Shown: piece after piece, positions 28,863 through 63,760 of the stretch
How the letters are laid out: the number at the start of each line of letters is the position of its first letter
Numbering within the stretch: position 1 is the stretch's first letter
DNA from: Haematobia irritans
Lineage: Eukaryota; Arthropoda; Insecta; Diptera; Muscidae
Direction: 5' to 3'
DNA: 64,000 nucleotides
Assembly: GCF_050003625.1 (NCBI RefSeq)
Contig: NC_134398.1
Span: 17,124,997-17,188,996 of the forward strand
The notes under the pieces: model-generated
What the model saw: only the letters and a program-made list of their open reading frames with translations
What the model was told of the DNA's origin: nothing
Databases searched by the model: none
Translations under genes and position numbers: made by a program

Positions 28863-28884
28863 TAAAAGCCGTATATAATTCAGT

Positions 28885-29489: not shown

Positions 29490-30125
29490 GAAGGGTGGTT
29501 AAAATTTCAAGGGCCGATGTTGATTTTGAATAAAACACAAACTATTTAGGAAATTATTGTAATTTTATTTTATTATGATATATTGGTATTACTCAATTAT
29601 GTATAGAACAAAATATCGGCCAAATGGGCGCCGCGACCTCGGTGGCACACCTTCATCCGATGGTCCAAATTTTCGATGACGCTGAGGCATGATGGAGGTT
29701 CTATGCCGTTAATGTGCCGAATTATCTCATCCTTTAGCTCTTGAATTGTTGCTGGCTTATCGACGTACACCTTTTCTTTCAAATAACCCCAAAGAAAAAA
29801 GTCCAACGGCGTCAAATCACATGATCTTGGCAGCCAATTGACATCGACATTACGTAAGATAACACGGCCATTGAATTTTTTGCGCAAAAGAGCCATTGTT
29901 TCGTTAGCTGTGTGGCAAGTGGCACCGTCCTGCTGAAACCACATATCGTCCACATCCATATCTTCCAATTCGGGCCATAAAAAGTTCGTTATCATCTCAC
30001 GATAGCGAACACCATTCACAGTAACTGCCTGACCGGCCTCATTTTGGAAAAAATACGGCCCGATGATGCCGCCAGCCCATAAACCGCACAAAACAGTCAC
30101 TCTTTGTTGGTTTTTCGACAATCAC
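29490..30125 (-). mobile_element. DD41D (rosa-type) mariner remnant with transposase fragment
   Basis: A minus-strand frame of 174 residues (30121-29597) carries [27 protein letters not shown] and [20 protein letters not shown]. Between the Asp of QQD and the Asp of PLD I count 41 residues, the DD41D spacing of rosa-like mariners. The first catalytic Asp and the N-terminal domain are missing; the sequence breaks at 30121. No confident inverted end is visible. A better copy is at 36174-37105. Confidence 0.8.
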
Positions 30126-37700: not shown

Positions 37701-40700
37701 AAATAAGATTTTGACAAAATCTTCAAACTACGATTGCCCTTGCACTTACTGATCACAACTAATCTTTGTTCTATCCGCTTATTAGGGAAAATTCCTCATA
37801 TTAGGCAGCTGTTATGCATAGGTTTCGGGTGCCTTAGTTGTTATGTCTTTAGGTTAGGTTAGGTGGCAGCCCGATGTATCAGGCTCACTTAGACTATTCA
37901 GTCCATTGTGATACCACATTGGTGAACTTCTCTCTTATCACTGAGTGCTGCCCGATTCCATGTTAAGCTCAATGACAAGGGACCTCCTTTTTATAGCCGA
38001 GTCCGAACGGCGTTCCACATTGCAGTGAAACCACTTAGAGAAGTTTTGAAACCCTCAGAAATGTCACCAGCATTACTGAGGTGGGATAATCCACCGCTGT
38101 TGTAAAGACAGGGATTGTTGTGTATGTTATGTTATATAAAATATTGTGAAGAATAATTCCAACTTTGTAGGATATTCATATCTATGGACTCGTTCAGCTC
38201 GTAGGACCAAATATAAAGAAAAATCCTATCCAAGCAAAATACTTAACTGCTAGAAGTTTTTAGGATACTGAATACATGACCGTTAAAATTCAGCTCGAAT
38301 GACCAAATGTAAAGAAAAATGCTTTACCCTTTGAGTATTTATACACTGTTAGAAAAATATGTTTTTCATATGTTCCGATATAAACAAAATGTGTTTCGGG
38401 CACAATTTTGAAACACAATATATTTAAGTGCAAACATGTAATGTTCCTAAACTAACACTAAATGTTTGGGACATCTATGTTAATATGTTAGAATAAATTA
38501 TGTTTGGGGCATGCATGTTTCATAAAAATCATATGTGTGAATGCAAACATATATAAATTTACAAATTTCGACTAAACATACATATGTTGTGATATTTTTT
38601 TCAGAGAGCGACAGAGAGAGAGTATAGAGAAAGAAATAGAGATGGAAACAGGGAGAGTTGACGAAAGATATCAACATAACACAGCAAAAGAATCAAAAGA
38701 GAACAATTTCTGTGAAACCGCTTGTATGTTGTTTCGGAAAACTGTTTTATGATCAGGCCAAAAATTTGATATGCTTAAGTCTAAATATTATTTAATTTGA
38801 ATAAAGAGAATGGACATTCGGAACCAAGAGAATAGACATTTGAAAAACAAACAGCATATGTTTTCGCCTTGGGAGCAGCATTTTATGTATGTGTGAACAT
38901 GTGTTTTGTTTATCATTTTGGCATTATGGGCACAATTTTTTTCTTGGTTCGTTAAAAGAAATCAGGGGTCTTCATAAAAATAACGAAAGGGCACTATACA
39001 CTTTTTAGAGTTGGGACAGTAAAATAAAATAAGGAGGAAATAGTGAAAAATTACAAAGTAAAATGTATAAAAACAAAGTTTAGTTCCTCCTTATTAATAA
39101 GTAGTCCACGAGGAGTTGACGGACACCTTCAAATATAAAAGCGGGCATTAAGTTCGAGTTTTGCAGCTAAAACAATTTAAAAAGTTTATTTTCTTTAAAA
39201 TGAATTATTAAAGAAAAATAAAAGGCATTTTATAACGATGTTGTTAAATGCTAGTAAACAACTGTTCACGCCTAAATAAATTTATGTTTATATTATAAAA
39301 TTGTTTATGTATGTTTATACTCGACTCCACGCTCTTCTTTTGTTAGAGTTTTTGAATTCCTTCCAACAGTTTTTGTTACAAAATTGTTATTTTTGCAATA
39401 AAAAAATAATATTTTATCCAAAAATCAGTCAATTTCGTTTATACCAAGCACTGTTACTGACTATAAATTTTTAATAACCCACATTTCGAAGTTTCATTAT
39501 AAAAATTTAATATAGTATAAATATAAATGTGTAAATTAAAAACAAAAAAGTGTTCGGTCGGAGTAGGGATTGAACCCACGACCCTTTGCATGCAAGGCAG
39601 ACATGCTAACCACTGCTCCACGTAGCAAACAAATGTATGTTTCTGTTAAATAATGTTATGTTTGCATGGGCTCGTGGGCGCTGCAAACTATGCTATATAA
39701 ATGTAACTTATAACGATAATTATCTACTGGTGACTATAACTGCTACGTAGCCCAGTGGATAGTGTGTTGGCTTACAAACTGTATGGTCCTCGGTTCGATT
39801 CTCCGTGCAGGCGAAAGGTAAAATTTATAAAAGTGAATAATTTCTTCAACATTATTTGTATTACAGAAAAAGGTGCCAAGAACTAAAATATTTCGTGAAA
39901 GTGAAAATTACGAGTATGTTAGGGAATGAACACAATCGTCTTTGCGAAAAATTCTTCCAAGCATATAATATTTTTGGGCTCAATATGCTTCCAAACATAT
40001 AATATGTACACATAAAACAAACATATTAATGTTTCGGCAGTATCCAATAATATATGTGCTTCCTGCAAAATATGTTTGGAACATATGTTAAAGAAGCGAT
40101 TTTTTTTGAGGGTGTAGATTTTTCAAAGATATCGCCATAACAATTTTGAGTCAATATACTAGACACAACAATGAATTATATCAATTTATAGAGGATTTAA
40201 CAAAAAAAAGTATGTTTTTAATTTGATTTTTAATGTAAACTGATCTTCTTCCACAGATATTGTCGCTTCAATATGCCATACACTGGATATACCACATTTG
40301 ACATTTGATTGGTCACCCAGTGAAGCATTGGATGAAAAACCATTGAGGAGTATGACTTTGAATTTTCATCCATACAATGTACTTTTCTCTCGAGGCCTAG
40401 CAGAGACAACACAAAGTTTTGGTTGGCGCTCATTTACGGTGGTCTATGAATCCGAAAAAGGTAAGGAACCATTGAAGATATTCGCTCAGTCACATGATGT
40501 AGAGATTGTTTGGGAGTAAGTTTTATGATACGCTCACGAACACTACACTGATTTAAAAACTCCCATTGAACTTTTTAAGGTAGTGCGAGGGGGATGGGTT
40601 TGAGTTATTATTGGGTTTCCAGCAAGTGAAATTTAATTCATAGATATCCCCTCTCTCATTCTTTTCTCTTCTAGAACTTCAACAACTTCAGGATATCTTT

Positions 40701-43700
40701 CAAATTGGAGAACCCGGTAGTAATCCTACCACAGTAAAACAATTACCAGAAGATCCAGATTATCGTCCATTTTTGAAGAGTATAAAAACATCAACCGATA
40801 ATTGTTTGATTTTACATTGTTCTCTGGACAAAATAATGAGTGTTCTAAGACAAGCCAATGAATTAAATATGCTGGGTGAATATCAGGTAAGAGTTTTTCT
40901 TTCCTAAAAATAGAGAATAACTCTGATGAAAACTTGTTTTTTTTTTTTTTGAAAATTTCAGAGTATTTTCATCACCACAGTGGACACCCATACCTTAGAC
41001 TTACAGGAAATATTAAATGTCGGTGCCAATATTACAACCATACGTTTAATGGATCCCACAGATTTTCAATTGCGTAATCTTGTACGAGATTGGGAAGAAC
41101 TTGAAAAACGTTCTGGGAACTTTTATCGTGTGGATCCTACACAAATTAAGGTAAGTGATTGATGTAAACAGTTTGGAATGACAACTTTAAATAATTTTTT
41201 TTGGTATTAAGACTAATATGGTCTTACTTAGCGATGCTGTCTGGATGTTTGTCAAAGGCTTGGCAGAACTTGAAATTGTCGAAGAACTTAATGCTCCCGA
41301 GCTGACATGCCGTAGGAATCGTCCTTGGGCCCATGGACGAAAGATATTGGAGTTTATAAAAGTGGTAAGAGAATCCTAGGAGAAAAACAAGTAAATACCA
41401 CAGAAAAATATTGGCAAAATTTTCTATAGAAATTAAAAGTTTGACAAAATTTTCTATAGAAATAAAATTTTGACAAAATTTTCTATGGAAACAAAATGTT
41501 GACAAAATTTTCTTTAGAAATAAAATTTTGACAAAATTTTCTATAGAAGTAAAATTTTGATAAAATTTTTTATAAAAATAAAATTTGGATAAAAATTGTC
41601 TATAGAAATAAAATTTTGGACAAACTTTTCTATAGAAATAAAATTTTGAGAAAATTTTCTATAGAAATAAAATTTTGAGAAAATTTTCTAAAGAAATAAA
41701 ATTTTGAAAAAAAATTTTCTAGAGAAATAAAATTTTCGACAAAATTTTCTATAGAAATAAAATGTTGAGAAAATTTCCTATAGAAATAAAATTTTGAGAA
41801 AATTTTCTATAGAAATAAAATTTTGACAAAATGTTCTATAGAAATAAAATTTTGAAGTAAGATTTTAACAAAATTTTCTATTGAAATCAAATTTTGAAAA
41901 AATTTTCTATAGAAATAAAATTTTGAGAAAATTTCCTATAGAAATAAAGTTTTGACAAAATTTTCTATAGAAATTATATTTTGGACAAAATTTTTTATAG
42001 AAAAAAATTTTGGACAAAATTGTCTATAGAAATAAAATTTTGACAAAATTGTCTATACAAATAAAATTTTGACAATTTTTCTATAGAAACAAAATTTTGA
42101 GAAAATTTTCTACAGAAATAAAATTTTGAGAAAATGTTCTATAGAAATAAAATTTCGAGAAAAATTTCTACAGAAATAAAATTTTGACAACATTTTGTAT
42201 AGAAATAAAATTTTGAGAAAATTTTCTATAGAAGTAAAATTTTGACAAAATTTTCTATAGAAATAAAATTTTGACAAAATTTTCTATAGAAATAAAGTTT
42301 TGAAAAAATTTTCTATAGAAATTTTGAGAAAATTTTCTATAGAAATTATATTTTGGACAAAATTTTCTATAGAAAAAAATTTTGCACAAAATTGTCTATA
42401 CAAATACAATTTTGACAAAATTATCTATAGAAACCAAATTTTGAGAAAATTTTCTACAGAAATAAAATTTTGAAAAAATGTTCTATAGAAATAAAAATTT
42501 CGAGAAAAATTTCTATAGAAATAAAATTTTGACAAAATTTTGTATAGAAATAAAATTTTGAGAAAATTTTCTATAGAAGTAAAATTTTGACAAAATTTTC
42601 TATAGAAATAAAATTTTTACAACATTTTCTATAGAAATAAAATGTTGAAAAAATTTTGTATAGAAATAAAATTTTGAGAAAATTTTCTATAAAAGTAAAA
42701 TTTTGACAGAATTTTCTATAGAAATAAAATTTTGACAAAATTGTCTGTAGAAATAAAATTTTCCAACGAAATAAAATTTTGGCAAAATTTTCTTAGAAAA
42801 AAAATTTTTAAAAATTTTCTATAGAAATAAAATTTTGACAAAATTTTCTATAGGAATAAAATTTAGAGAAAAATTTCTATAAAAATAAAATTTTGACAAA
42901 ATTTTCTATAGAAATAAAATGTTGGCAAAATTTTCTATAGAAATAAAATTTTGACAAAATTTTCTATAGAAAAAAATTTTGACAAAATTGTCTGTAGAAA
43001 TAAAATTTTCCAACGAGATAAAATTTGGCAAAATTTTCTTAGAAAAAAAAAATTCCAAAAATTTTCTATAGAAATAAAATTTTGACAAATTTTCTATAGA
43101 AATAAAATTTTGACAAAATTTTCTATAGAAATAAAATTTTGACAAAATTTTCTAGAGAAATAAAATTTTTGACAAAATTTTCTATAGAAATAAAATTTTG
43201 ACAAAATTTTCTATAGAAATAAAATTTTGACAAAATTTCCTATAGAAATAAAATTTTGACAAAATTTTCTATAGAAATGAAATTTTGACAAAATTTTCTA
43301 TAGAAATAAAATTTTGACAAAATTTTCTATAGAAATAAAATTTTGACAAAATTTCCTATAGAAATAAAATTTTGACAAAATTTTCTATAGAAATAAAATT
43401 TTGACAAAATTTTCTATAGAAATAAAATTTTGACAAAATTGTCTATACAAATAAAATTTTGAAAAATTTTTCTATAGAACTAAAATTTTGACAAAATTTT
43501 CTATAGAAGTAAAATTTTGACAAAATTTTCTATAGAAATAAAATTTTGAAAAATTTTTCTATAGAACTAAAATTTTGACAAAATTTTCTATAGAAATAAA
43601 ATTTTGACAAAATTTTCTATAGAAATAAAATTTTCACAAAATTTTCTATAGAAATAAAATTTTGACAAAATTTTCTATAGAAATAGAATTTTGACAAAAT

Positions 43701-46700
43701 TTTCTATAGAAATAAGATTTTAACAAAATTTTCCATTGCAATAAAAATTTGACAAAATTTTCTATAGAAATAATATTTTTACCATTTAGCGTTCAGATGA
43801 AGCATTTACTGGTCGCATTGATTTCAATCAGCATGGTCAACGAAGTTTTTTCACTCTACGATGTTTGGAGGTGACACCAACGGGTCTACTCGATCTATCC
43901 ACTTGGGATCCGGTAAATGGATTTATGCCTCTTGGAAATGATGACGATAGCGATAAACGAGTTGGAGCAAAATTACAAAATAAGACATTTATAATCACTT
44001 CACGTTTGGGAGCTCCCTTTCTAATGATGAAGTATTTATTCTTGGAAATTGGATTCGGAAATCCCAGTTTTATAATTTATACTTGGTCTTCCGTTTTAGG
44101 CAAGCCGAAAATGGAGAAGTCCTGGAAGGAAATGCTCGTTATGAGGGCTATTCCATGGATCTAATAGATTCCATAGCAAAACTACTTAATTTCAAATATG
44201 AATTCCAATTAGCTCCAGATGGTAGATATGGAAGTTTCAATAAAAAGACTCAACAATGGGATGGTCTGGTAAAGCAGCTCTTGGATGGAGTAAGTTTTCT
44301 AAAAATTTTTAATTGTTATAGATTTCTAATCAGTCTTTTGTTCTTAGAATGCCGATTTGGGTATTTGTGATCTTACTATGACTTCTTCAAGACGTCAAGC
44401 TGTGGACTTTACCCCACCATTTATGACCTTGGGCATTAGTATTCTGTTTATGAAACCTGAAGTTCAGCCACCCAATTTATTTTCATTTCTTCTACCATTT
44501 TCTAAAGATGTATGGGTCTATATGGCCACGGGTTATTTGGGTGTATCATTACTACTCTTTGTTGTGGCTCGTATGGCCCCAGAAGATTGGGAGAATCCCC
44601 ATCCCTGTAAGGAACCTGAAGAATATGAAAATCTCTGGACTATAACAAATACAACATGGCTGACCATGGGTTCCATAATGGGTCAAGGTTGTGATATTCT
44701 ACCAAAGTAAGTAAAAATTATGGCAAAACATTTCCAGAAAACATGCCAGAACGACTGTCCTGGGTTCCCAGAACGGATACAAGAATAGAGAAATAAATAT
44801 TACACGGGTGGATTGAAGACGGGATCGAACGGGACTGGGTGCACATGTGATGGACTCAGATCCCGAGATCCTATTCTGAATGTTGGATTATACTACAGTC
44901 CTGTGGCCGAGATGGTAATAACAGAATGTACGGAATGGCTCAGAAATATCAAGAGGTCAGAGAAATCGAGACAGCAGACATAACGGTGAAATCACGAACC
45001 GTTTTGGAATGCAAAAGGGCCCTAAGAGTTGAGAAGACATCGTTTTCGAAAAGGGGCAGCGGATGATAGTGTCGGCTAGGTTAGTTATAGTGGAATATTA
45101 TAGGTTTTTGAAAGACAATAGGACTGCAGACGGAAAGGGTCGTTGGAGTCACGACAACACCCCTAGAATTGATAGGGCATCTTCTTCGAAAAAAATTTGT
45201 AAAAGTTTTATTTCTATAGAAAATTTTGTGAAAATTTTATTTCTATAGAAAATTTTTTAAAAATTTTATTTCTGTAAAAAAATTTGTCAAAATTTTATTT
45301 CTATAGAAAATTTTGTCAAAATTTTATTTCTATAGAAAATTTTGTCAAAATTTTATTTCTACGAAAAAAATTTGTCGAAATTTTATTTCTATAGAAAATT
45401 TTGTCAAAATTTTATTTCTATAGAATTTTTTTTTTTTTTTTTAAATTTATTTCTGTAGAAAATTTTGTCAAAATTTTTGTTTCTATAAAAATTTGTCAAA
45501 ATATTATTTCTTAGAAAATTTTGTCAAAATTTTATTTCTATAGATACTTTTGTCAAACTTTTATTTCTATAGAAAAATTTAAAAAAATTTATTTCTGTAG
45601 AAAATTTTATTTCTATAGAAAATTGTGTCAAAATTTTATTTCTATAGAAAATTTTGTCAAAATTTTATTTCTATAGAAAATTTTGTCAAAATTTTATTTC
45701 AATAGAAAATTTTGTCAAAATTTCATTTCTATAGAAAATTTTATCAAAATGTTATTTCTATAGAAAATGTTGTCAAAATTTTATTTCTATAGAAAATTTT
45801 ATCAAAATGTTATATCTATAGAAAATTTTGTCAAAATTGTATTTCTACAGAAAATTTTGTTAAAATTTTATTTCTATAGAAAATTTTGTTAAAATTTAAT
45901 TCTATAGAAAATTTTGTCAACATTTTATTTCTATAGAAAATTCTATGAAAATTTTATTTCTATAGAAAATTTTGTCAAAATTGTATTTCTATAGAAAATT
46001 TTGTTAAAATTTTATTTCTATCGAAAATTTTGTTAAAATTGTATTTCTATAGAAAATTTTGTCAAAATTTTATTTGGATCGAAAATTTTATCAAAATTTT
46101 ATTTCTATAGAAAATGTTGTCAAAATTTTATTTCTATAGAAAATTTTGTCAAAATTGTATTTCTATAGAAAATTTTTCAAAATTTTATTTCTTTGGAAAA
46201 TTTTGTCAAAATTTTATTTCTATAGAAAATGTTGTCAAAATTTTATTTTTATAGAAAATTTTGTCAAAATTTTATTTTATAGAAAATGTTGTCAAAATTT
46301 TATTTTTATAGAAAATTTTGTCAAAATTTTATTTTTATAGAAAATTTTGTCAAAATTTTATTTCTATACAAAATTTTGTCAAAATTTTATTTCGATAGAA
46401 AATTTTGTCAAAATTGTATTTCTATAGAAAATGTTGTCAAAATTTTATTTCTATAGAAAATTTTGTTAAAATTTTATTTCTATAGAAAATTTTGTTAAAA
46501 TTGTATTTCTATAGAAAATTTTGTTAAAATTTTATTTCTATAGAAAAATTTGTCAAAATTTTAATTCTTTAGAAAATTTTGTCAAAATTGTATTTCTATA
46601 GAAAATGTTGTCAAAATTTTATTTCTATAGAAAATTTTGTCAACATTTTATTTCTGTAGAAAATTTTGTCAAAATTTTATATCTATAGAAAATTTTCTCA

Positions 46701-49700
46701 AAATTTTATTTCTATAGAAAATTTTGTCAAAATTTTATTCTATAGAAAATTTTCTCAAAATTTTATTTCTATAGAAAACTTTGTCAAAATTTTATTTCTA
46801 TAGAAAATTTTGTCAAAATTTTATTGCTATAGAAAAGTTTGTCAAAATTTTATTTCTATAGAAAATTTTGTCAAAATTTTATTTCTACATAAAATTTTGT
46901 CAAAATTTTATTTCTGTAGAAAATTTTATCAAAATGTTATTTCTATAGAAAATTTTGTTAAAATTGTATTTCTATAGAAAATTTTGTCAAAATTTTATTT
47001 CTATAGAAAATTTTGTCAAAATTGTATTTCTATAGAAAATTTTGTCAAAATTTTATTTCTATAGAAAATTTTGTCAAAATGTTATTTCTATATAAAATTT
47101 TGTCACAATTTTATTTCCATAGAAAATTTTGTCAAAATTTTATTTCTATAGAAAATTTTATCAAAAAATTTTTTTCTGTAGAAAATTTTGTCAATTTTTT
47201 TTTTCTATAGAAAATTTTTTCAAAAATTTTTTTTTATAGAAAATTTTGTCAAAATTTTTGTTTCTATAGAACATTTAGTCAAAATTTTATTAAAGTAAAA
47301 ATTATGGCAAAACATTTCCAGAAAACATGTCAGAACGACTGTCCTGGGTTCCCAGAACGGATACAAGAATAGAGAAATAAATATTACACGGGTGGATCGA
47401 AGACGGGAACGAACGGGACTGGGTGCACATGTGATGGACTCAGATCCCGAGATTCTATTCTGAATGTTGGATTATACTACCATCTACTACCATTATATTA
47501 CCATCTCTTCCGACCACAGGACTGGTCGGAAGAGATGGTAATAACAGAATGTATGGAATGGCTCAGAAATACCAAGAGGTCAGAAAAATCGTTAAACTTT
47601 CACACGTTAGCAGGGGGTAATGAAAGCAGACAGCAGACATAACGGTGAAATCACGAACCGTTTTGGAATGCAAAAGGGCCCTAAGAGTTGATAAGATATC
47701 GTTTTCGAAAAGGGACAGCGGATGATAGTGTAGGTTAGGTTAGTTATAGTGGAATAGTTTGTCAAAATTTTATTTCTATAGAAAATTTTGTCAAAATTTT
47801 ATTTCTACATAAAATTTTGTCAAAATTTTATTTCTATAGAAAATTTTATCAAAATGTTATTTCTATAGAAAATTTTGTTAAAATTGTATTTCTATAGAAA
47901 ATTTTGTCAAAATTTTATTTCTATAGAAAATTTTGTCAAAATTGTATTTCTATAGAAAATTTTGTCAAAATTTTATTTCTATAGAAAATTTTGTCAAAAT
48001 GTTATTTCTATATAAAATTTTGTCACAATTTTATTTCCATAAAAAATTTTGCCAAAATTTTATTTCTATAGAAAATTTTATCAAAATTTTTTTTTCTGTA
48101 GAAAATTTTGTCAATTTTTTTTTTCTATAGAAAATTTTTTCAAAAAAATTTTTTTATAGAAAATTTTGTCAAAATTTTTGTTTCTATAGAATATTTAGTC
48201 AAAATTTTATTTCTATAGAAAATGATGCCTATATTTGATCTGCAACACGTTTCCTCGATATCTCTTCAAACCAATTCTTCCATCTTACAGGGCATCCTCT
48301 ACACGCCTAGTAACCGGTATTTGGTGGTTCTTTGCCTTGATGATGTTAAATTCCTATACAGCTAATTTGGCTGCTTTCCTAACCATGTCACGTATGGGAT
48401 CATCAATCAAAAGTGCTGAAGATTTGGCAGCACAAAACAAAATAAAATATGGTGCAGTTATGGGTGGTAGTACCATGAACTTTTTCAGGGTAAGAGAGAG
48501 ATAAGGTTCCAATTGGAAATGGGCCACCTAAAGTCTATAGAAATCTCTATTTAAATTCAAATTTTTTTAGGAATCCAATTTCACTACCTATCAACGCATG
48601 TGGGCATCCATGGAATCGGATATGTCTGTCTTCACGAAAAGCAATGATGAGGGCGTTGAACGTGTACTCAAGGGTAAACGATTATATGCCTATCTTATGG
48701 AATCCACGGTATTGGAATATATAGTCGAGAGAAATTGTGATTTAGTACAAATTGGAGGATGGTTGGATTACAAAACATATGGTATAGCCATGCCATTTAG
48801 TAAGAAAATCATGATATCTCGGTTTATAAACATCTCCTTGAGAAGAAATTATTTCCTAGATTCTCCCTATCGTAAACAGATCAGTGGTGCTGTCTTGAAA
48901 TTAGGTGAAGCTGGAGCCTTAACCGAACTAAAACGTAAATGGTGGAAGGAAATGCATGGAGGTGGTAAATGTACTACTAGCGATGCAGCATCTAGTGATA
49001 CAGCAGAATTGGACATAGAGAGTGTGGGTGGTGTTTTCTTGGTTTTGGGTATGGGTCTGGTATGTGCCTATACCATAGGCCTAGTGGAATTTTTATGGAA
49101 TGTCAAATCGGTTGCTGTGGATGAAAAGGTGAGTTCTACATTTTCTTTTATCTGGTGTTCATTGGAATTTATCTGGTGTTCATTGGAATACGTTTATCTC
49201 TTACAGTTATCCCTAAAAGAAGCTCTTAAGGTTGAGACATTATTTGCTTTGAAATTTTGGATAGCCACCAAACCGGTCCATGCTAGTTCAGCAGATTCCA
49301 GTAATTCTTCGTCGTCCTCCTCCTCGTCATCTTCTTCGTCTTCGAAATCTTCAAAATCTTCCAAATCAATGGGTCTTTCAGTATCACAAAGTATGAAATC
49401 CATAAAAAGTTCCATACCAGAAACTGTACGCTCTTCTGTTCATGAGAAATTAAAGAAAATTGGTTCGATATTCTCTATGAAGTCGCTAAAATCGGATAAA
49501 CTTGACAAAGAAGTAGAGGCCGCCAATAATCAACAAATTATTCAATTATCTCCCCCGCCACCAATGCCTAGACCTTTAGCTTCTATGCATGTATCCGAAG
49601 TTTCTATGGTGGATAAGGCTACACAATTCAAATTGAAAGGTAAAACCAAGGAAAAAGTTCAGGAAACTCAAGAATCCGAAAGGGAGGAACAAAATGTATC

Positions 49701-50694: not shown

Positions 50695-51265
50695 AAAATT
50701 TTGACAAAATTTTCTATACAAATAAAATTAAAAAAACACAATTTCTATAGAAATAAAATTTTGACAAAATTTTCTATAGAAATAAAATTTTGACAACATT
50801 TTCTATAGAAATAAAATTTTGACAAAATTTTCTATAAAAATAAAATTTTGACAAAATTTTCTATAGAAATAAAATTTTGACAAAATTTTCTATGGAAATA
50901 AAATTTTGACAAAATTTTCTATAAAAATAAAATTTCGACAAAATAGAAATAAAAATTTTGACAAAATTTTCTATAGAAAGAAAATTTTGACAAAAATTTC
51001 TACAGAAATAAAATTTTAACAAAATTTTCTATAGAAATAAACTTTTGAAAAAATTTTCTATAGAAATAAAATCTTGGTAGATTATTTTTGGCTCGAGTGG
51101 CAACCATGATCATGAACCGAATAAAATTTGAACAAAATTTTCTATAGAAATAAAATTTTGACAATGATGAAAATTTTATTATGAACCAAATAAAATTTTA
51201 ACAAAATTTTCTCTAGAAATAAAATTTTGACAAAATTTTCTATAGAAATAAAATTTTGGTATATT
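50695..51265 (+). repeat. 29-bp array with two right-end blocks
   Basis: Forward monomers, a right-end block at 51075-51105 (TTGGTAGATTATTTTTGGCT, CGAGTGGCAACCATGATC), three more monomers, then a second right-end block at 51255-51290 (TTGGTATATTATTTTTGGCT, CTAGTGGCAACCATTATT). This is a nested or unequal-exchange product of the element. Confidence 0.88.
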
Positions 51266-51885
51266 ATTTTTGGCTCTAGTGGCAACCATTATTATGAACC
51301 GATATGGACCAATTTTTTTATGATTGGACCAATTTTGGTATGGTTGTTAGCGACCATATACTAACACCACGTTCCTAATTTGAACTGGATCAGATGAATT
51401 TTGCTCCTCCAAGAGGCTCCGGAGGTCAAATCTGGGGATCGGTTTATATGGGGGCTATATATAATTATGGACCGATGTGGACCAATTTTTGCATGGTTGT
51501 TAGAGACCATATACCAACATCATGTACCAAATTTCAGCCGGATCGGATGAAATTTGCTTCTCTTTGAGGCTCCGCAAGCCAAATCTGGGGATCGGTTTAT
51601 ATGGGGGCTATACGTAAAAGTGGACCGATATGGCCCATTTTCAATACCATCCGACCTACATCGATAACAACTACTTGTGCCAAGTTTCAAGTCGATAGCT
51701 TGTTTCGTTCGGAAGTTAGCGTGATTTCAACAGACGGACGGACGGACGGACATGCTTAGATCGACTCAGAATTTCACCACGACCCAGAATATATATACTT
51801 TATGGGATCTTAGAGCAATATTTCGATGTGTTACAAACGGAATGACAAAGTTAATATACCCCCATCCTATGATGGAGGGTATAAA
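51266..51885. repeat. ~170-bp tandem repeat with outer GAGGGTATAAA end
   Basis: Units like those at 30300-31185, followed by CCATTTTCAATACCATCCGA, CAGACGGACGGACGGACGGA, CAGAATTTCACCACGACCCA and ATACCCCCATCCTATGATGG, AGGGTATAAA. This outer end is common in higher-fly genomes. The unit has no coding capacity. Confidence 0.7.
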
Positions 51886-52775
51886 AAAATTCTATAGAAA
51901 CAAAAATTTTGACAAAATTTTCTATAGAAATAAAATTTTGACAAAATTTTCTATAGAAATAAAATTTTGACAAAATTTTCTATAGAAATAAAATTTTGAC
52001 AAAATTTTCTATAGAAATAAAATTTTGACAAAATTTTCTATAGAAATAAAATTTTGACAAAATTTTCTATAGAAATAAAATTTTGACAAAATTTTCTATG
52101 GAAAACAAATTTTGCCAAAATTTTCTATAGAAATAAAATTTTGACAAAATTTTCTATATAAATAAAATTTTGACACAATTTTCTATATAAATAAAATTTT
52201 GACAAAATTTTCTATAGACATAAAATTTTAAGAAAATTTTCTATAGGTTAGTTTAGGTGGCAGCCCGATGTATCAGGCTTACTTAGACTATTCAGTCCAT
52301 TGTGATACCACATTGGTGAACTTCTCTCTTATAACTAAGTGCTGCCCGATTCCATGTTAAGCTCAATGACAAGGGACCTCCTTTTTATAGCCGAGTCCGA
52401 ACGGCGTTCCACATTATAGTGAAACCACTTAGACAAGCTTTGAAACCCTCAGAAATATCACCAGCATTACTGAGGTGGGATAATCCACCGCTGAAAAGCT
52501 TTTTGGTGTTCGGTCGAAGAAGGAATCGAACCCACGACCTTGTGTATGCAAGGCGGGTATGCTAACCATTGCACCACGGTGGCTCCCAAAAAAACTTTCT
52601 ATAGAAATAAAATTTTGACAAAATGTTCTATAGAAATAAAATTTTGATAAATTTTTCTATAGAAATAAAATTTTGACAAAATTTTCTATAGAAATAAAAT
52701 TTTGAGAAAACTTTCTATAGAAATAAAATTTTGACACAATTTTCTACAGAAATAAAATTTTCTATAGAAATAAAA
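51886..52775 (+). repeat. 29-bp array interrupted by a SINE
   Basis: Very regular forward monomers (51930-52100 almost without change) to CTATA at 52241. The SINE follows, then monomers again from 52593. Low divergence suggests recent amplification. Confidence 0.92.
52242..52592 (-). mobile_element. tRNA-derived SINE, full-length copy
   Basis: Reading the minus strand from 52587: GGAGCCACCGTGGTGCAATG, GTTAGCATACCCGCCTTGCA, TACACAAGGTCGTGGGTTCG, ATTCCTTC. This gives an A box (TGGTGCAATGG) and a perfect B box (GGTTCGATTCC). The body and the tail (CCACCTAAACTAACC) match two other copies in the window. Inserted into a 29-bp monomer. Non-autonomous; depends on a LINE for movement. Confidence 0.9.
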
Positions 52776-52815
52776 TTCGCTTTGTATGTTATTGTTCAAT
52801 TGTTATTGTTGTTTT

Positions 52816-53109
52816 TGATTTCAGCTTAAAACCATGCATTAACTAAATTACTACACTTTTTGGTTTTTCGGAAAGTTCAAGTGTAGTTCACTTTGGGTTG
52901 AATTACCCGAATTTATTCTGATAATTGGTTGATAGTTTTGCTGCAAGTAGAGGATGCTGATGAGGAATGTAATTCCGAAACAGCTGTACATCCAACCATC
53001 TTGCGTGTATAGGGCATTGCCCAAATAAATTTGATAAGCATACTTTTCCTCTGTTGGTTAAGCTACACTTGTAGTTTAGTCAATGCATGGTTTTTAGCTG
53101 AGATCGAAA
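52816..53109. mobile_element. ~290-bp TIR MITE
   Basis: Left TTTGATTTCAGCTTAAAACC, ATGCATTAACTAAATTACTA; right GTAGTTTAGTCAATGCATGG, TTTTTAGCTGAGATCGAAA, inverse to each other. The interior has GGAATGTAATTCCGAAACAG and CGCAAGATGGTTGGATG-like words. Sits between two minisatellite blocks. Confidence 0.8.
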
Positions 53110-54203
53110 TAAAATTTTGATAAAATTTACTATAGATATAAGATTTTGACAAAATTTACTATAGATATAAGATTTTGACAAAAATTTTTCGACAATATTT
53201 TCTATAGAAATAAAATTTTCTATATAAAAAAAAATTACTAAATTTTTAATAGAAATAAAATTTTGACAAAATTTTCTATAGAAATAAAATTTTGAGAAAA
53301 CTTTCTATAGAAATAAAATTTTGACAAAATTTTCTATAGAAATGAAATTTTGACAAAATTTTCTTTAGAAATAAAATTTTGTCAAAATTTTCCATAGAAA
53401 TAAAATTTTGACAAAATTTTCTATAGAAATAAAATTTTGAGAAAACTTTCTATAGAAACAAAATTTTGGCAAAATTTTTATACATTTTTTTGACAAAATT
53501 TTCTTAGAAATAACATTTTTACAAAGCCACCAGTTCAAGACTGACCTGTCTGCTTCAGCTGTGGACAAATTATTAGAATTTGTGTCTTACAGGATTTTGA
53601 TATGTAAATGGGGAATGTGCACTCCTTAGCCTTTTTGTCAAACTACCATTGACCCTCTCCTCTATAGTTTTTCGATTAAAATAAAAATGTAGTTTCCGAG
53701 ATATCTTCTTTGTTTGCTTTGTCCTTCATGAGCCATTTTAAATAAAATAAAAATTTGAGAAAACTTTCTATAGAAATAAAATTTTGACAAAATTTTCTAT
53801 AGAAATGAAATTTTGACAAAATTTTCTTTAGAAATAAAATTTTGTCAAAATTTTCCATAGAAATAAAATTTTGACAAAATTTTCTATAGAAATAAAATTT
53901 TGAGAAAACTTTCTATAGAAACAAAATTTTGGCAAAATTTTTATACATTTTTTTGACAAAATTTTCTTAGAAATAACATTTTTACAAAGCCACCAGTTCA
54001 AGACTGACCTGTCTGCTTCAGCTGTGGACAAATTATTAGAATTTGTGTCTTACAGGATTTTGATATGTAAATGGGGAATGTGCACTCCTTAGCCTTTTTG
54101 TCAAACTACCATTGACCCTCTCCTCTATAGTTTTTCGATTAAAATAAAAATGTAGTTTCCGAGATATCTTCTTTGTTTGCTTTGTCCTTCATGAGCCATT
54201 TTA
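53110..54203 (+). repeat. 29-bp array and a 463-bp tandem duplication
   Basis: Forward monomers lead into a unit ending CTTTGTCCTTCATGAGCCAT. The segment ending at 53740 is repeated ending at 54203, displaced by exactly 463 bp; identical open frames at 53365-53568 and 53828-54031 show near-zero divergence. The non-repeat part (CACCAGTTCAAGACTGACCT onward) is unknown DNA. Confidence 0.88.
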
Positions 54204-55478: not shown

Positions 55479-58400
55479 CTGAAACAATATGGAATAATAT
55501 TGTTGATTATTTTTATGATTATATATAGCAAAAATATAGCAAAATTAAAATTCTTAACTGAAGAAGACATGAATTTATTGATATAAATGTGGGTGAAAAT
55601 TTAAAATTGGTTACTTTCCGCAGATAAAATTTTTAAAGAGGTTTAAATGAAAGATTCAAAAGCTGAATCGTTTAATCGAGTTTTTGTAAAAAAAAAAAAG
55701 AAGTTGAAGTGGTTGTTTTATAATTTTTTTTTTTTAAATTCGACTAATCTACTTTTAATGTTTTTAAAATCGAGTCAAACCGACTTTTGATGTTGTTGAA
55801 AAATGATACTTATTTAAAAAGTCGAAGTTAATATTTTGAAAAATTGAGTTTTCCAAATTAAAAAAAAAACTGCAAAATTTTCCTACTTTTACAAATTTTG
55901 AAAAAGTCCATGAAACTATTGACTTTTTCTCAAAAACTAAAATGGTCGTTTTGCTTTCCAAAAAAGAATATTACACCTAAATTAGGAATCGATATTTTTG
56001 TTGCCCAAGATCGCTATTGTATATTCACCAAATTCGACAAATCGATTTTTTATGTTCTCCAATATCGACTTTTATAGCGTAAAAATGTAAAAGTCAGAGG
56101 ATATGGATTGAGACCAACTTCAGATTGCTATAATTTCCAGTGACAGTTTATTTTATTGTTAACAAACTAACAAAGGAATTTTGATATAATTCAGATTCTA
56201 ATTAATTTTAATTCAGAAATAAAGTTATTCGCGGCGGAATTCAAGCGTGATAGTTTTTGATTACCAAATAGCCAAATATAACTGGAAAAGCAGGTGGCTA
56301 TCGTTAGAGCCCTTCAGCATTTAATTATGAATAAAAGTAGAAGTAAAAAAATAGTAACAAAATGATCCGAAATATGGAGGCCAGATTTTATGGAAATCCT
56401 CGCAGAAGTCGTAGAAAACTTGCTCGTATGCTGAACATATCGCGAGAACGTATGCAAAACATATTGAAAAATGTACTAGGAATGAAGTTAAAAAAAGTAC
56501 AAAAAATTGGAGACCCAAGAAATTGCTTCGCTTCTACGAATTTGGCCAGTTACCAAATTTGGTTTTCTCCCATGAGAAGCCATTCCAAAGCTGAAAATTA
56601 ACATTTTCGATTGGCCACCAAATTTTATGTTCCGCCGATAGTGATAGGCTGCGGTCGCTACCCGCTCGAATGCATCCGATTATCGGGAAAATATCCTAAG
56701 GGCATTATTGAAGCCCTGAGCACACAAACATTTCGACCGCAGGCCACGGACATTCCAAATGAACTCATCACCATCTTACTCAGCAAACGTAAACAAAAAA
56801 TGACATAAAAAGGAGGTTTGCACGCTTCATTCCTACCGCACAATGGTTATCAAAATCTACGAATCTTAATCACGGTTGCCCCAGTCGAAAGAATTCTACC
56901 AAAAATGGTAGTTTTTTATTGCTTGGTAGTTAGGAAGAATGCTTGATAGTTTGGTAGATTTTGCAAAATATTCCTCTCCAAGTAAGAGGTACTAAACAAT
57001 TTTATAGAAATAAAACTTTGACAAAATTTTCTATAGAAATAAAATTTTGACAAATTGTATGTGGAAAAAAAATTTTGACAAAATTATCTACAGAAATAAA
57101 ATTTTGACAAAATTTTCTATAGAAATAAAATTTTGATAAAATGTTCTATAGAAATAAAACTTTGTCCAAATTTTCTATAGAAATAACATTTTGACAAAAT
57201 TTTCTATAGAAATAACATTTTGACAAAATATATAGAAATAACATTTTAAAAAATTTTTTCTATAGAAATAGAACTTTGACAAAATTTTCTATAGAAATAA
57301 AATTTGGACAAAATTTTCTATAGAAATAAAATTTTGTCAAAATTTTCTAAAGAAATAAAACTTTGACAAAATATTCTATAGAAATAAAATTTTGAAAAAA
57401 GTGTTTGTATAGAAATAAAACTTTGTCCAAATTTTCTATAGAAATAACATTTTGACAAAATTTTCTATTAAAATAACATTTTGACAAAATTTTCAATAGA
57501 AATAACATTGTGACAAAATTTTCTATGGAAATCAAATTTTGACAAAATTTTCTATAGAAATAAAATTTTGGCAAAATTTTCTATAGAAACAAAATTTTGA
57601 CAAATTTTTCTATAGAAATAAAACTTTGTCCAAATTTTCTATAGATATAACATTTTGACAAAATTTTCTATAGAAATAACATTTTGACAACATTTTTTAT
57701 AGAAATAAAATTTTCTATAGAAATAAAACTTTATCCAAATTTTCTATAGAAATAGAATTTTAAAAAATTTTCGATAGAAATAAAATTTTGACCAAATATT
57801 CTATAGAAATAAAATTTTGAAAAAAAATTTTCTATAGAAATAAAATATTAACAAAAATTTCTATAGAAATAAAATATTAAAAAAAATTTCTATAGAAATA
57901 AAATTTTAACAAAATTTTCTAGAAATAAAATTTTAACAAAATTTTCTATAGAAATTGGAATTTGACAAAATTTTCCATAGAAATAAAATTTTGACATAAT
58001 TTTCTATAGAAAAAAAATTTTGACAAAATTTTCTATAGAAATAAAATTTTGACAAAATTTTCTATAGAAATAAAATTTTGACAAAATTTTCTATTGAAAT
58101 AACATTTTGACAAAATTTCTTATAGAAATAAAATTTGGAAAAATTTTCTATAGAAATAAAATTTCAATAAAATTTTCTATAGAAAAACAATTTTGACAAA
58201 ATTTTCTATAGAAATAAAATTTTGAAAAAATTTTCTATAGAAATAAAATTTTAACTCAATTTTTTATAGAAATAGAATTGTATAGTGTTTGTATAGAAAT
58301 AAAACTTTGTCCAAATTTTCTATAGAAATAACATTTTGACAAAATTTTCAATAGAAATAACATTGTGACAAAATTTTCTATGGAAATCAAATTTTGACAA

Positions 58401-61400
58401 AATTTTCTATGGAAATCAAATTTTGACAAAATTTTCTATAGAAATAAAATTTTGGCAAAATTTTCTATAGAAACAAAATTTTGACAAATTTTTCTATAGA
58501 AATAAAACTTTGTCCAAATTTTCTATAGATATAACATTTTGACAAAATTTTCTATAGAAATAACATTTTGACAACATTTTTTATAGAAATAAAATTTTCT
58601 ATAGAAATAAAACTTTATCCAAATTTTCTATAGAAATAGAATTTTAAAGAATTTTCGATAGAAATAAAATTTTGACAAAATATTCTATAGAAATAAAATT
58701 TTGAAAAAAAAAATTTCTATAGAAATAAAATATTAACAAAAATTTCTATAGAAATAAAATTTTGAAAAAATTTTCTATAGAAATAAAATTTTAACAAAAT
58801 TTTCTAGAAATAAAATTTTAACAAAATTTTCTATAGAAATTGGAATTTGACAAAATTTTCCATAGAAATAAAATTTTGACATAATTTTCTATAGAAAAAA
58901 AATTTTGACAAAATTTTCTATTGAAATAACATTTTGACAAAATTTCTTATAGAAATAAAATTTGGAAAAATTTTCTATAGAAATAAAATTTCAATAAAAT
59001 TTTCTATAGAAATAAAATTTTGACAAAATTTTCTATAGAAATAAAATTTTGAAAAAATTTTCTATAGAAATAAAATTTTAACTCAATTTTTTATAGAAAT
59101 AGAATTTTGACAAAATTTTCTATAGAAATAAAATTTAAAAAAAAATTTTCTATAGAAATAAAATTTTAACAAAATTGTCTGTAGAAATAGAATTTTGACA
59201 AAATTTTCTATAGAAATAGAATTTTGACAAAATTTTCTACAGAAATAAAATGTTGACAAAATTTTCTATAGAAATAAAATTTGGACAAGATTTTCTATAG
59301 AAAATTTCAATAGTAATAAAAGTTTATTTTTTTTTAAATTTTTAAGTAGATTTTTGGTAAATTTTTCTTCAAATTTTGGTAGATTATTTTTGGCACGAGT
59401 GGCATCCGTGATCGGTATTCGTAACAAATCTCCTAAATTGAGCGAATTTCACGTTTGGCGGTATACTAATTTGGTAATTTTGTTTTAGATCATCATATAG
59501 ACGGCCCACACTGCGTGTTACCCATTTATTCATACATTAACCAGCAAAAAAATTGGAAGTTCTTCCAAAGGCACAACTTCAAAAGCACCACCAAAAGATG
59601 CACTCCCAATGATGTTCATTATTTTAACTACCCAGGAAGTTATTTTAATTCAATTTTTTATAACTTGTTTTTTTTTTTTGCTAAATCCAATCTGAAAAAA
59701 TTGTGAATTTTTGAAAATGTTTGAGGTCAAACGTTTCCGACAAGCGTATGGATCCATTAAAAAATATAAAAAATTATAAAAATTATTTATTTGACAAAAT
59801 ATCACAGAAATTTAAATTACATCCAAAACATTGAATTCGGATCACACCTAAAGAAGTGATGCAAATTCAGTGCAACAGCTTTTAACATGGAGGACTTCGG
59901 TCCTATCACAAGGCCATGTTAAATTCATCGCTTCTGCATCAATTTTGCACCACTTCCGGATCCAAAAAGAACATTTTCATTACTTTTTTGGCGACGCTTT
60001 TTTGCTGAGTACCTATTGATTCTATTTGTAAAATTGAATGTAAGGCCAGATTTCCAGTCATCGCCGTTATATGTGAAAACCATATATGGTTGTTTAGGAA
60101 ATTTGCCAAACAAATACCCGTTGTATTCGCAATGTCGGCTTTGGATGCTGAAATGAATCATGTTAGACGTGCTTATATGTAAAACACAAACTAACATTAC
60201 GTGATATTACATGAGGTCGGTGCTATTCTCTAAAAGGAAATATGTAATCAACACATTCCGTTTTTCACATTTCACTCTGAACTAAATAAATATTAGCATA
60301 TGTAAGCAAATACATTACATATTTGGTCCATTCGATAAATTATTTTTTTTGAATTCATAACATGTAATCTTAAATTGGTCAAAGTTTGGGTACCATGATT
60401 TTAAACCCACCATCATAAAATGATGGTCATAGGTTATAGTGGAATTTGAAAACGATCTAAAAAGTATTTAACTCAGTATTCAATTTTATTAAATGCTATA
60501 ATCGGCTTAACTTCACACTAGTTTCACCTAATAATCTAAAGAATGTTACTTAGAATAGGATCGCATAAGAATAATGCAAAATGCCATAAGCAAAATTTAC
60601 CCTATATAAAAATTTAGCTTGTCAACAATCTGTAGCAAATAACATCGACCAATCTTACCTATAATCCTCCCCAACTTGTTATAGAATAGATAATGTAATG
60701 GAAATAATTACGCCATAATACCTGTTAAAGTATTCAAGCCTTGTTCAGAACCCCTCAAAATGCTGGCATATGAATTATCTGATGAAGGATCAGGATTTTC
60801 TATGATAACACTAACACTACTCATCGAACTTGATTTACTGTGGGGTGATGATGAAGAATTTGGCGAAGAATCCATAGTCGTGGAGTTTTTCGACGTTTTC
60901 GATGGATCAAACCCCGAAGAAGGATTACTGGTTGGTGTTGATGGTATATTTCCAGATAAGGAAATTTTATCCATGCTATCCGAGAGATTTAGTTCTATGG
61001 GGGAAAAAAAAGAAAACCATAAGTATTATCAACTTGTATGGAAAATGCTTAGAGGTTAATTATTTTACCAATCACTCCTTCTAGGGTGTATCGCAAATCA
61101 TGGACATGTAACAATTTACAGGGTCCTCCCTTTTCGCTATTGAATTCATGAATATATAAGAAACCATCTTCACAGGCCAGGAGAAGCCGTAATTCTTTTT
61201 GAATTCGTGCCAAACCACAAACATGTTTCAGTCCTGGTTGTCCCAAAACGGCTGTGGCAAAAGCACGATCTTGACTTAGAACATCACCTATTTGTGATGG
61301 TATCAAGTATGAAGTCATAGCCTTAGATAAGTAACCACTCATTGACCATGAATTCGAGGATGAAGAGGAACCATTTGTTACTGTTGTTGTAGAGGCAGGT

Positions 61401-62434
61401 TGTTCGTGATTAGAGGATGTTGTAGCCGAGCCATTTTCTGTATTATTTGTACTTGGTGCAGCAGGATTAGAGGAGGAAGATGAGCCATTTGTAGTAGAGG
61501 CTGGAGAAGCTGTGGATACTTTCTTAACGTCATCTGGAAGTTTTGAAGAAGAAAAATATTTTATTATTGATGTTTTTAAAGTTATTTGTCTAAGCAGAGG
61601 CGGAGCGTTTCATTAGACGCACCAACTTAAAAACTGTTTGTAGGCATCAATGAAAACTTCCTTTTCTGTTTACAGATCTCGAGAAATTTAATCTTACCTA
61701 TTGTTGCCTTTCTCTCTGCCGCCTCCACAGCTTTTGTGTCTATCTTAAAGATATGTACAGTTTCTGTATTGGATGATGCACATAGAAAATCGCCCGTCGT
61801 TGAAAAGACCAACGAAGCAATTCTTACACAACGCTTAACACCTCTTCGAAATTCCTGAACTTTTTGACCATTTTTAACACAGAATACTCTTATCACAGTT
61901 CCACGCTCTGAGGCTGTTGCCAACAATGTCCCACTTGGTGAAAATGCCATGGCCGACAAAGCTGTATCGTGAGCCTTTATTGTAAGGCCTGTCTTCAGTT
62001 TATTCGCATTGAAAATTCTCAACTCTCCACTGGTAGTGCAAATGGGAAAAGCTAAATGTGAATTCAACGATAACGAACATAGGCCCAATTCATTTGGTGC
62101 AATATTCTCAATGGAATGTAAGATTTTCATATCCCGAATATCATGGATGTGTATACTTTCGGCCAAACAGACTACCAAACGATAACGATTCATACGAACA
62201 CATAGAATATCCGAGGGATAGACACAATTGCAGATATCCTGTTTCTTTTTGAAATGTAACATTTTCAAACAATTCGGCTTCTGATGGGTGACCAGCACTA
62301 CCAGAGAGCTATTGAATAGACGTTCCACTATCCGTATTTCTTCATTATTTTCTTTTGCAAAAATTTCATCAATTTTATCGCTGGCATTGATCGAGTACAG
62401 ACGAAAACCATTGTTGCTTAAAACCGATATTGAT
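55375..62434 (-). CDS. Atg18b: WIPI2 / Atg18 family PROPPIN, 5-prime incomplete
   Basis: Four exons on the minus strand: 62434-61698, 61533-61069, 60994-60722 and 55478-55375 (525 codons plus stop; phases 1/1/1 agree). The protein is a seven-bladed WD-type propeller that binds PtdIns3P at forming autophagosomes and recruits the Atg16 complex. Visible family landmarks: IVERLFNSSLVVLV, HFKKKQDICN, MNRYRLVVCLAESIHIHDIR, AHDTALSAMAFSPSGTLLAT, ASERGTVIRVF, the phosphoinositide-binding FRRG (61851-61840) within EFRRGVKRC, SNTETVHIFKI, and LSQDRAFATA. The C-terminus DERQFPPVAIAAKD resembles the end of vertebrate WIPI2 (EHPPMIL). Two Ser/Thr/Asn-rich stretches (start of exon 2, most of exon 3) lengthen it beyond WIPI2. 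The first ~30 residues lie outside the window. Atg18a is the alternative name; Atg18b is preferred from its place beside a clumsy-like gene. Confidence 0.93.
56340..56866 (+). pseudogene. Mariner-type transposase pseudogene
   Basis: At 56362 the frame gives MIRNMEARFYGNPRRSRRKL, ARMLNISRERMQNILKNVLG, the N-terminal helix-turn-helix of a mariner-like transposase. After a frameshift it gives GQLPNLVFSHEKPF, where family members have an Asp in place of His, so the first catalytic residue is lost. A later shred RFIPTAQW lies at 56829-56852. The middle is replaced by unrelated sequence. Lies in Atg18 intron 3, antisense, directly before the minisatellite element. Confidence 0.7.
56869..59412 (+). 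mobile_element. 29-bp minisatellite element, best complete copy (copy B)
   Basis: Left end ATCACGGTTGCCCCAGTC, then GAAAGAATTCTACCAAAAAT, GGTAGATTTTGCAAAATATT and CCTCTCCAAGTAAGAGGTAC. About 2.3 kb of forward monomers follow. Right block at 59330-59412: TTTTTAAGTAGATTTTTGGT, then CAAATTTTGGTAGATTATTT and TTGGCACGAGTGGCATCCGT, GAT. The termini ATCACGGTTGCC and GGCATCCGTGAT are inverted repeats with one mismatch, and the inner GGTAGATTATT/AAGAATTCTACC words are also inverse. An internal ~870-bp segment is repeated (57410-58110, 58280-58980). No protein is encoded and no clear target duplication is seen. Confidence 0.75.
59430..60240. repeat. Unclassified repeat with a strong hairpin, Atg18 intron 3
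   Basis: TAACATGGAGGACTTCGGTC and the inverse CATGTTA close a stem around 59884-59923. Words such as CACTTCCGGATCCAAAAAGA and GAAGTGATGCAAATTCAG recur in inverse at both sides. Open frames at 59515-59706 (+) and 60197-59925 (-) show no family. The rest of the intron, 60241-60721, shows nothing notable. Confidence 0.4.
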
Positions 62435-62544
62435 CTGGAAAAGAAAAGAGAAAAAATTGCGAATAAGTTAATGTGATGGTATAATAGTAAAGCCATATAC
62501 ATACTACATATGTATGTACTGTACGGCTCGATTCAAATCGGTGT

Positions 62545-63760
62545 ACATTTTGACAAGAGTTTCTATAGAAGTACAATTTTGACAAGAGTTTCTATAGAAA
62601 TAAAATTTTGACAAAATTTTCTATAGAAATACAATTTTAACAAAATTTTCTATAGAAGTAAAATTTTGACAAAATTTTCTATAGAAATAAAATTATGACA
62701 AAATTTTCTATAGAAATAAAATTTTGACAAAATTTTCTATAGAAATAAAATTTTGAGAAATTTTTCTATAGAAATAAAATTTTGAGACAATTTTCTATAG
62801 AAATAAAATTTTGAAACAATTTTCTATAGAAATAAAATTTTGACACAATTTTCTATAGAAATAAAATTTTGACAAAATTTTCTATAGATATAACATTTTG
62901 ACAAAAGTTTCCATAGAAATAAAATTTTGACAAAATTTTCTTTAGAAATAAAATTTTGTCAAAATTTTCTATAGAATTAAAATTTTGACAAAATTTTCGA
63001 TAGAAATAAAATTTTGACAAAATTTTCTATAGAAATAAAATTTTGACAAAATTTTCTATAGAAATAAATTTTTGACAAAATTTTCTATAGAAATAAAATT
63101 TTGACAAAATGTTCTATAAAAATAAAATTTTGACAAAATTTTCTATAGAAAAAAAATTTTGACAAAAATGTCTATAGAATGTTTCTATAGAAATAAACTT
63201 TTGAGGAAATTTCCTATAGAAATAAAATTTTGACAAAAATCTCTATAGAAATAACATTTTGACAACATTTTCGATAGAAATAAAACTTTGACAAAATTTT
63301 CTATAGAAAAATTTTGAGGAAATTTCCTATAGAAATAAAATTTTGACAAAAATCTCTATAGAAATAACATTTTGACAAAATTTTCTATAGAAATAAAATT
63401 TTGACAAAATTTTCTATAGAAATAAAATTTTGACGAAATTTTCTATAGAAATAAAATTTTGACAAAATTTTCTATAGAAATAAAATTTTGACAAAATTTT
63501 CTATAGAAATAAAATTTTGACAAAATTTTCTACAGAAATAAAATTTTGGCAAAATTTTCTATAGAAATAAAATTTTGAAAAAATTTTCTATAGAAATAAA
63601 TTTTGAGAACATTTTCTATAGAAATGAAATTTTTAGAAAATTTTCTATAGATATAAAATTTTGAGAAAATTTTCTATGAAAAATAATGTTTTTTTTTTTT
63701 GCAAAATTTTCTGCAAATTTTAGTAGATTATTTTTGGCTCGAGTGACAACCCTGAGAAAA
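62545..63760 (+). repeat. 29-bp array with right end, upstream of the Atg18 exon
   Basis: About 40 forward monomers, then a right-end block at 63690-63755 (TTTTAGTAGATTATTTTTGG, CTCGAGTGACAACCCTGAG). No left-end block; it begins abruptly after CAAATCGGTGTACATTTTGA. Probably in the first intron of Atg18. Confidence 0.9.

Follow-up and report, generated by a model that had tools for sequence, protein, structure and literature searches.

Results

The DNA analyzed here, in the following referred to as the window, is a stretch of 64 kb from Haematobia irritans (contig NC_134398.1, positions 17,124,997 to 17,188,996), and all results on the element described below rest on this one window. At 56869-59412 it contains a structure in which a left block, a long array of 29-bp monomers and a right block follow one another between inverted 11-bp termini, and arrays of the same monomer, with or without such blocks, occur at further loci (Table 1). 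With some reserve, we read this structure as a non-autonomous DNA element without coding capacity, the interior of which is a minisatellite.

A single 29-bp minisatellite occupies about 40% of the window

A word scan of the window identified 26.1 kb of monomer-like DNA, located on both strands, or about 25.5 kb if eight short weak matches are left aside, which means that about 40% of the window consists of a single 29-bp minisatellite. The arrays are formed by tens to more than 100 head-to-tail copies of AAAATTTTGACAAAATTTTCTATAGAAAT. From 17 array groups, 823 nearly full monomers were cut; the consensus is identical in 16 of these groups and differs at one base (position 25) in A4, and the divergence of the monomers from the consensus is lowest in A11 (3.2%) and highest in A6m (10.4%). 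That one consensus prevails although divergences reach from about 3% to 10% could be a sign of a conserved master monomer; however, this proves little, since a rough reckoning gives about two expected changes in a neutral master and a chance of about 0.13 for zero changes.

The monomer is composed of a 19-bp palindrome with one central base and a 12-bp palindrome. The single-strand fold of the dimer is real (z = −4.7, 0 of 200 shuffles as good), that of the monomer is weak (z = −2.0, 9 of 200 shuffles as good). Selection on the palindrome was considered and rejected: with each distinct monomer counted once per locus (486 monomers), complementary double changes amounted to 15 versus 12.4 expected and 10 versus 7.8 expected, an excess no better than that of shifted controls, one of which reached 10 versus 5.4. 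If duplicate monomers were kept, such changes seemed up to twice as frequent as expected (29 versus 14.7 and 17 versus 10.0).

Local similarity between the monomer and the end blocks exceeded chance slightly at most (in eight comparisons, between 1 and 30 of 60 shuffles scored as well) and does not point to an origin of the monomer from these blocks. A text search of the literature gave no match for the repeat and block sequences; the terminus sequence occurs in 27 papers, and none of the 20 titles listed among them deals with an element of this sort. The main-text excerpts of papers on the stable fly, the horn fly and the house-fly M-locus name no 29-bp repeat, but we make no claim that the repeat is new to the literature. 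Pattern searches of viral and other genome contig collections, which do not comprise fly genomes, returned a single chance match (L001), lacking the array and also the ends in the 901 bases inspected, and otherwise nothing.

Polar end blocks and inverted termini delimit some of the arrays

All left and right blocks listed in the preliminary description of the window exist, within tens of bases of the places given there. In nhmmer searches, the left block matched four times, at 56871-56992, 11586-11700 and 19041-19158 on the forward and at 1916-1820 on the reverse strand, with 77.7-110.2 bits compared to 6.5 bits for the next match in the window and 6.8 bits for the best match in 20 shuffled windows; leave-one-out profiles recovered all four copies (51.9-79.6 bits). 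The right block matched nine times, always on the forward strand (6320, 6895, 15064, 17211, 29406, 51073, 51255, 59375 and 63719), with 12.5-41.1 bits compared to 5.1 bits for the next match and 9.7 bits for the best in shuffles, a level that the truncated copy at 29406 (12.5 bits) barely exceeds. Leave-one-out profiles, which did not include the copies at 17211 and 29406, recovered six of the seven tested right blocks (23.8-34.5 bits). The nine right blocks represent six independent loci, three being local duplicates: the block at 17211 duplicates that at 15064 (99.95% identity over 2,149 bp), and a reading of the flanks indicates the same for 6895 (of 6320) and 51255 (of 51073).

Each of the four left blocks is located at the 5' edge and each of the nine right blocks at the 3' edge of an array, all in the orientation of the array; in A2 and A10, where local duplication has taken place, the array also continues beyond a right block. 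The left block measures about 120 bp and the right block about 40-90 bp. Both are capped by an 11-bp terminus in inverted orientation, TCACGGTTGCC on the left (56870) and GGCATCCGTGA, GGCAACCATGA or AGCAACCGTGA on the right, the last of these occurring twice due to duplication. With up to one mismatch, TCACGGTTGCC is present at five places in the window, namely at 56870 itself and at four inverted right ends (6346, 6921, 51099 and 59401), which correspond to three loci, and the remaining ends carry at least two mismatches. The outermost bases, CAC...GTG, are present in some known superfamilies as well. Outside the right terminus the sequence fails to align between loci, as is expected of an element boundary. 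On the left, the flanks of the focal copy (56800-56869) and of A2 (3400-3453) end in the same Tc1-like stretch, with the array edges about 6 bp apart; by eye, both flanks resemble a remnant of a Tc1-type transposase, and chance and common descent are not separable in this case.

No long open frame is present in 56869-59412, where the longest stop-to-stop runs comprise 54 amino acids on the forward and 77 amino acids on the reverse strand. Of the features of elements of the terminal inverted repeat type, the inverted termini are present and coding capacity is absent. The complete copies measure about 2.5 and 3.5 kb, whereas miniature inverted-repeat transposable elements (MITEs) are about 400 bp long (PMC9659126; here and below, statements on published systems refer to excerpts of the papers), so that a strict MITE label does not fit.

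Most arrays fit early formation, a few later growth

If an array grew in place over its life, its monomers would share variants, and we scaled this sharing to the divergence of each locus. The analysis covered 14 loci, leaving out the local duplicates A3dup, A12dup and A9m, and the pooled spectrum was built without A4. At eight of the 14 loci, variant sharing was not above independence (P 0.09-0.50), with ratios of 0.98 (A11), 1.01 (A12), 1.04 (A6), 1.13 (A2), 1.17 (A1m), 1.39 (A6m), 1.51 (A14) and 2.00 (A10); the ratios of the remaining six are 1.54 (A7), 1.58 (A8m), 1.69 (A13), 2.22 (A3), 3.14 (A5) and 3.91 (A4). Simulations with a uniform spectrum gave ratios close to 1 if the array arose in a burst, 1.1-1.2 if growth was confined to the first tenth of its life, 1.7-2.8 if growth lasted through the first half and 2.5-5.0 if it never ceased, the whole-life medians being 2.5 with 70 and 5.0 with 16 monomers. 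Small loci offer little power, as seen from A10 (2.00, P = 0.17) and from A14 and A6m (1.51 and 1.39, both P = 0.09). Most loci thus fit an early formation of the array and a few fit later growth, and the small loci decide little. Mean pairwise distance as a measure of star-likeness was dropped, because in simulation it hardly separated burst from growth (0.95-1.00).

Direct evidence of lengthening by blocks comes from duplications of about 0.88 kb in the focal array (96.9% over the local alignment of 57341-58279 and 58229-59106, with a nearly identical inner part), of 2,149 bp at 99.95% in A3 and of 356 bp at 99.7% in A12. The tandem duplication in A3 (13387-17682) is either very recent or an assembly artefact. 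Finally, pairwise differences among the right blocks at A2, A10, A13 and A14 amount to 10.5-17.1% (six pairs) compared to summed monomer divergences of 8.8-14.4%, from which we conclude that array and right end are about equally old at these loci.

Discussion

The polar blocks at the array edges, the inverted 11-bp termini and the absence of coding capacity make a non-autonomous element with the array as its interior the best reading, which we hold with slightly more confidence than doubt. What the window itself shows is the anatomy with its inverted termini, a monomer common to the loci, block duplications and nested inserts. In such a scenario, a transposase supplied from elsewhere in the genome would most likely act on the inverted termini and move the unit together with its array by cut-and-paste. 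Most of the array length seems to be present at or soon after insertion in the form of identical monomers, which then decay independently; some arrays later lengthen by duplication of whole monomer blocks, and from many copies the left end, the right end or both are gone. As to the making of the clean array, we can offer a guess: replication slippage or gap repair, aided by the hairpin-forming monomer, could be responsible. The more far-reaching idea that every insertion starts out with an array already long and clean, transposition itself re-synthesizing tens of identical double-palindrome monomers with one master for all loci of the window but one, appears improbable to us.

Several observations weigh against the reading as a mobile element. 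The preliminary description had stated that the order of parts is common to independent copies, and it had named as grounds for refutation a joint occurrence of left and right blocks no higher than chance. The order is not shared throughout, and the test turns out against the description: both ends are present at only two of the 15 array loci (A3, A13), two carry the left end only (A1m, A4), four the right end only (A2, A5, A10, A14) and seven neither (A6, A6m, A7, A8m, A9m, A11, A12), and the two ends coincide no more often than random assortment would give (one-sided Fisher P = 0.54). The loci were counted after joining pieces split by later inserts and the ends were assigned by us; on 15 loci the test has little power, and loss of ends would yield the same pattern. 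In addition, the right block at 15064, belonging to A3 and hence to one of the two complete copies, was missed by its leave-one-out profile; the extended right block of A3 resembles that of the focal copy (Smith-Waterman score 60 versus a mean of 22.1 and a maximum of 35 in 100 shuffles). Within the window, the proposed search for termini and target-site duplications yielded the inverted 11-bp termini. Perfect direct repeats flanking the two complete copies, which are several per cent diverged, reach no more than 3 bp in either copy, compared to a mean of 3.2 bp in random pairs of places (n = 500).

The ages of the parts and the sharing of variants also include points of this kind. Pairwise differences between left blocks are 19.0-27.6%, with summed monomer divergences of 15.5-19.8%; between the A3 right block and the others they are 28.6-34.3%, with sums of 11.6-15.5%. 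At A3, and less so for the left blocks, the ends thus look older than the array, or they may form a subfamily. Excess sharing was detected at six of the 14 loci (A3, A4 and A13 with 0 of 200 draws each, A5 with P = 0.01, A7 and A8m with P = 0.02). The earlier view that the element spreads to new sites and then grows in place is consequently supported by these six loci and by the later duplication of about 0.88 kb in the focal array, but not by the eight loci without excess. Moreover, a 460-bp piece of array was copied locally without an end block (47752-48211 in A9m is a 98.0% copy of 46832-47291 in A8m), which demonstrates that arrays can spread by plain duplication.

The last observation leads to the alternative of a dispersed satellite, which would spread without a transposase by segmental duplication, recombination or re-insertion of circles, and in which the blocks would be relics of one founding element where the repeat arose. 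We consider this unlikely, even though neither block is found at seven of the 15 array loci, array pieces such as the 460-bp copy move without blocks, and the end blocks themselves join in local duplications. The blocks at eight loci nevertheless keep their polarity and inverted termini while their outer flanks differ, which is hard to obtain by copying of array pieces alone, and, local duplicates aside, different loci seldom share variants in order (z > 4 in 3 of 171 segment pairs, two of which are local duplicates).

Somewhat more doubtful still is the possibility that the element arrives short and that its array is extended at the site by one monomer after another for as long as it exists. 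The six loci with excess sharing, the ends of A3 that look older than the array and the block duplications would all be in line with such growth. However, eight loci show no significant excess and have ratios of 0.98-2.00, compared to the 2.5-5.0 simulated for whole-life growth, and the profile search found no short array-free copy in the window. A Helentron-type non-autonomous element of the HINE/DINE-1 kind, with central repeats and moved by a rolling-circle Rep/helicase, is very improbable. HINEs do have central tandem repeats and inverted repeats near their ends (PMC4067079, PMC7492417), but in the mite HINEs first described the 3' inverted repeat is set back from the 3' end by about 38-60 bp and followed by a palindrome (PMC4067079), whereas the loci aligned here diverge right after the right terminus. 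The flanks of three left ends (TTAA/T, TGAA/T, GGGA/G) do not show an insertion between T and T.

Comparison with known systems

The preliminary description knew of no named family with this architecture; repeat-filled transposons of such a plan are, however, already published, and the fly element, very abundant in the window, probably adds a new member to this known kind. Among the closest systems is the BrickBuilt MITE of Porphyromonas gingivalis (PMC4596501), which consists of a spacerless 23-nt minisatellite between a "leader" and a "tail", has small inverted-repeat ends and is present in many copies; its abstract mentions no transposase. The fly element follows the same plan of leader, spacerless minisatellite, tail and small inverted ends, with the whole order at 2 of 15 loci only. 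In contrast to the fly element, BrickBuilt is bacterial, always intergenic according to its abstract and of other sequence, with no sign of common descent; the fly element has a 29-bp unit and arrays of more than 100 monomers and is also located inside an intron.

Internal arrays are also known from further transposons. Cg_HINE of the Pacific oyster, a member of the Helentron superfamily (PMC7492417), has dispersed satellite-like arrays as its central repeats with unique flanking modules, but it has Helentron ends, and the position of the right terminus of the fly element does not fit the HINE layout. Tetris, a fly transposon without transposase, resembles the element in that the tandem repeats of its interior are found as long arrays lacking element flanks as well; it is a Foldback element with repeats of about 220 bp within long terminal inverted repeats, in contrast to one direct array and short inverted termini in our case. 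Galileo of the P superfamily (PMC4168063) is likewise a DNA transposon of flies, some copies of which are made longer by tandem repeats, but it has long terminal inverted repeats with tandem repeats of about 140 bp and 7-bp target duplications, none of which was seen in the fly element. We rejected a Foldback-type element (Tetris, Galileo-like), because each locus has a single direct array between short termini and not repeats in both orientations. In the MITE miDNA4 of Xenopus tropicalis, as summarized in a review (PMC9659126), a satellite motif inside the element gives rise to arrays, the differences being sequence and host.

How transposons seed satellites is named as an open question in the same review (PMC9659126). 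If our reading of the element is correct, one non-coding family would make up some 40% of a gene-bearing stretch of fly DNA, including nearly all of an intron, and its many dated arrays of one monomer would allow measuring whether a minisatellite inside a transposon lengthens at insertion or afterwards.

Array loci, inserts and neighboring genes

Table 1 Positions of the arrays of the 29-bp monomer, their end blocks and their duplications in the window.
Feature	Position	Strand	Parts and remarks
Left terminus, focal copy (A13)	56870-56880	+	TCACGGTTGCC; 11-mer match scan
Left block, focal copy	56870-56992	+	nhmmer 110.2 bits; leave-one-out 77.4 bits
29-bp array, focal copy	57001-59324	+	about 80 monomers
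Block duplication, focal array	57401-59106	+	57401-58279 versus 58285-59106; about 30 monomers
Extended right block and right terminus, focal copy	59325-59412	+	GGCATCCGTGA at 59401-59411
A3, second copy with both ends	11585-15100	+	left block 11586-11700; array 11705-15034; diverged right block 15064-15100
Tandem duplicate of 13387-15535	15535-17682	+	99.95%, 2,149 bp; second array end and right block 17211-17247
A4	19040-25525	+	left block 19041-19158; array 19162-20517 and 21808-25525 with Helitron-like insert between; no right block
A1m	952-1928	-	left block 1916-1820; array 1816-952; outer terminus unrecognizable; no right block
A2	3454-6357	+	array 3454-4191 and 6249-6318 around Helitron-like insert; right block 6319-6357; no left block
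A2, continued	6405-7965	+	array, second right block 6894-6931, more array
A5	28884-29430	+	array and truncated right block 29405-29430; 12.5 bits
A10	50695-51295	+	array; two right blocks (51072, 51254) within local duplication
A14	62546-63754	+	array; right block 63718-63754; no left block
A7	41407-43780	+	array without end blocks; takes up nearly all of intron 41365-43789
A8m (45192-47310), A9m (47754-48225)	45192-48225	-	arrays without end blocks
A6 (34291-34520, 37358-37724, +), A6m (34826-35928, -)	34291-37724		arrays without end blocks
A11 (51886-52246, 52591-52777), A12 (53104-53524; duplicate 53745-53987)	51886-53987	+	arrays without end blocks

Several arrays are split by nested inserts; these arrays are therefore older than the inserts, and several seemingly separate arrays are pieces of one. 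The inserts in A2 (4192-6248) and A4 (20518-21807) belong to one family and are located at the same step of the monomer, between positions 15 and 16; we take them to be Helitron-like based on their end motifs TC... and ...CTAG. A11 is split by an insert (52247-52590) that by eye resembles a short interspersed nuclear element, and A6 by a stretch with a hAT-like end, also named by eye (34521-37357), which holds the reversed array at 34826-35928.

The exons flanking the intron that is nearly filled by A7 join in one open frame, and the gene presumably encodes an ionotropic glutamate receptor, as judged by eye. Another tandem repeat family, in which the period is about 153 bp, occurs at 30473-31180 and 51325-51641 and directly adjoins A5 and A10 at their right ends. 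Three open reading frames (27127-27624, 29597-30121 and 36280-36933, the last on the reverse strand) look by eye like pieces of a Tc1/mariner-like transposase, and a fourth at 48598 we assume to be glutamate-receptor-like; a Pfam search, which worked on the control P0001, assigned no family to the frames at 27127, 29597, 36280 and 48598. The exon at 61627-62502 on the reverse strand belongs to WIPI2; the best among the 120 matches listed, a WIPI2-like protein of Musca vetustissima (94% identity, 88% query coverage), points to a muscid-like fly and ranks ahead of other flies.

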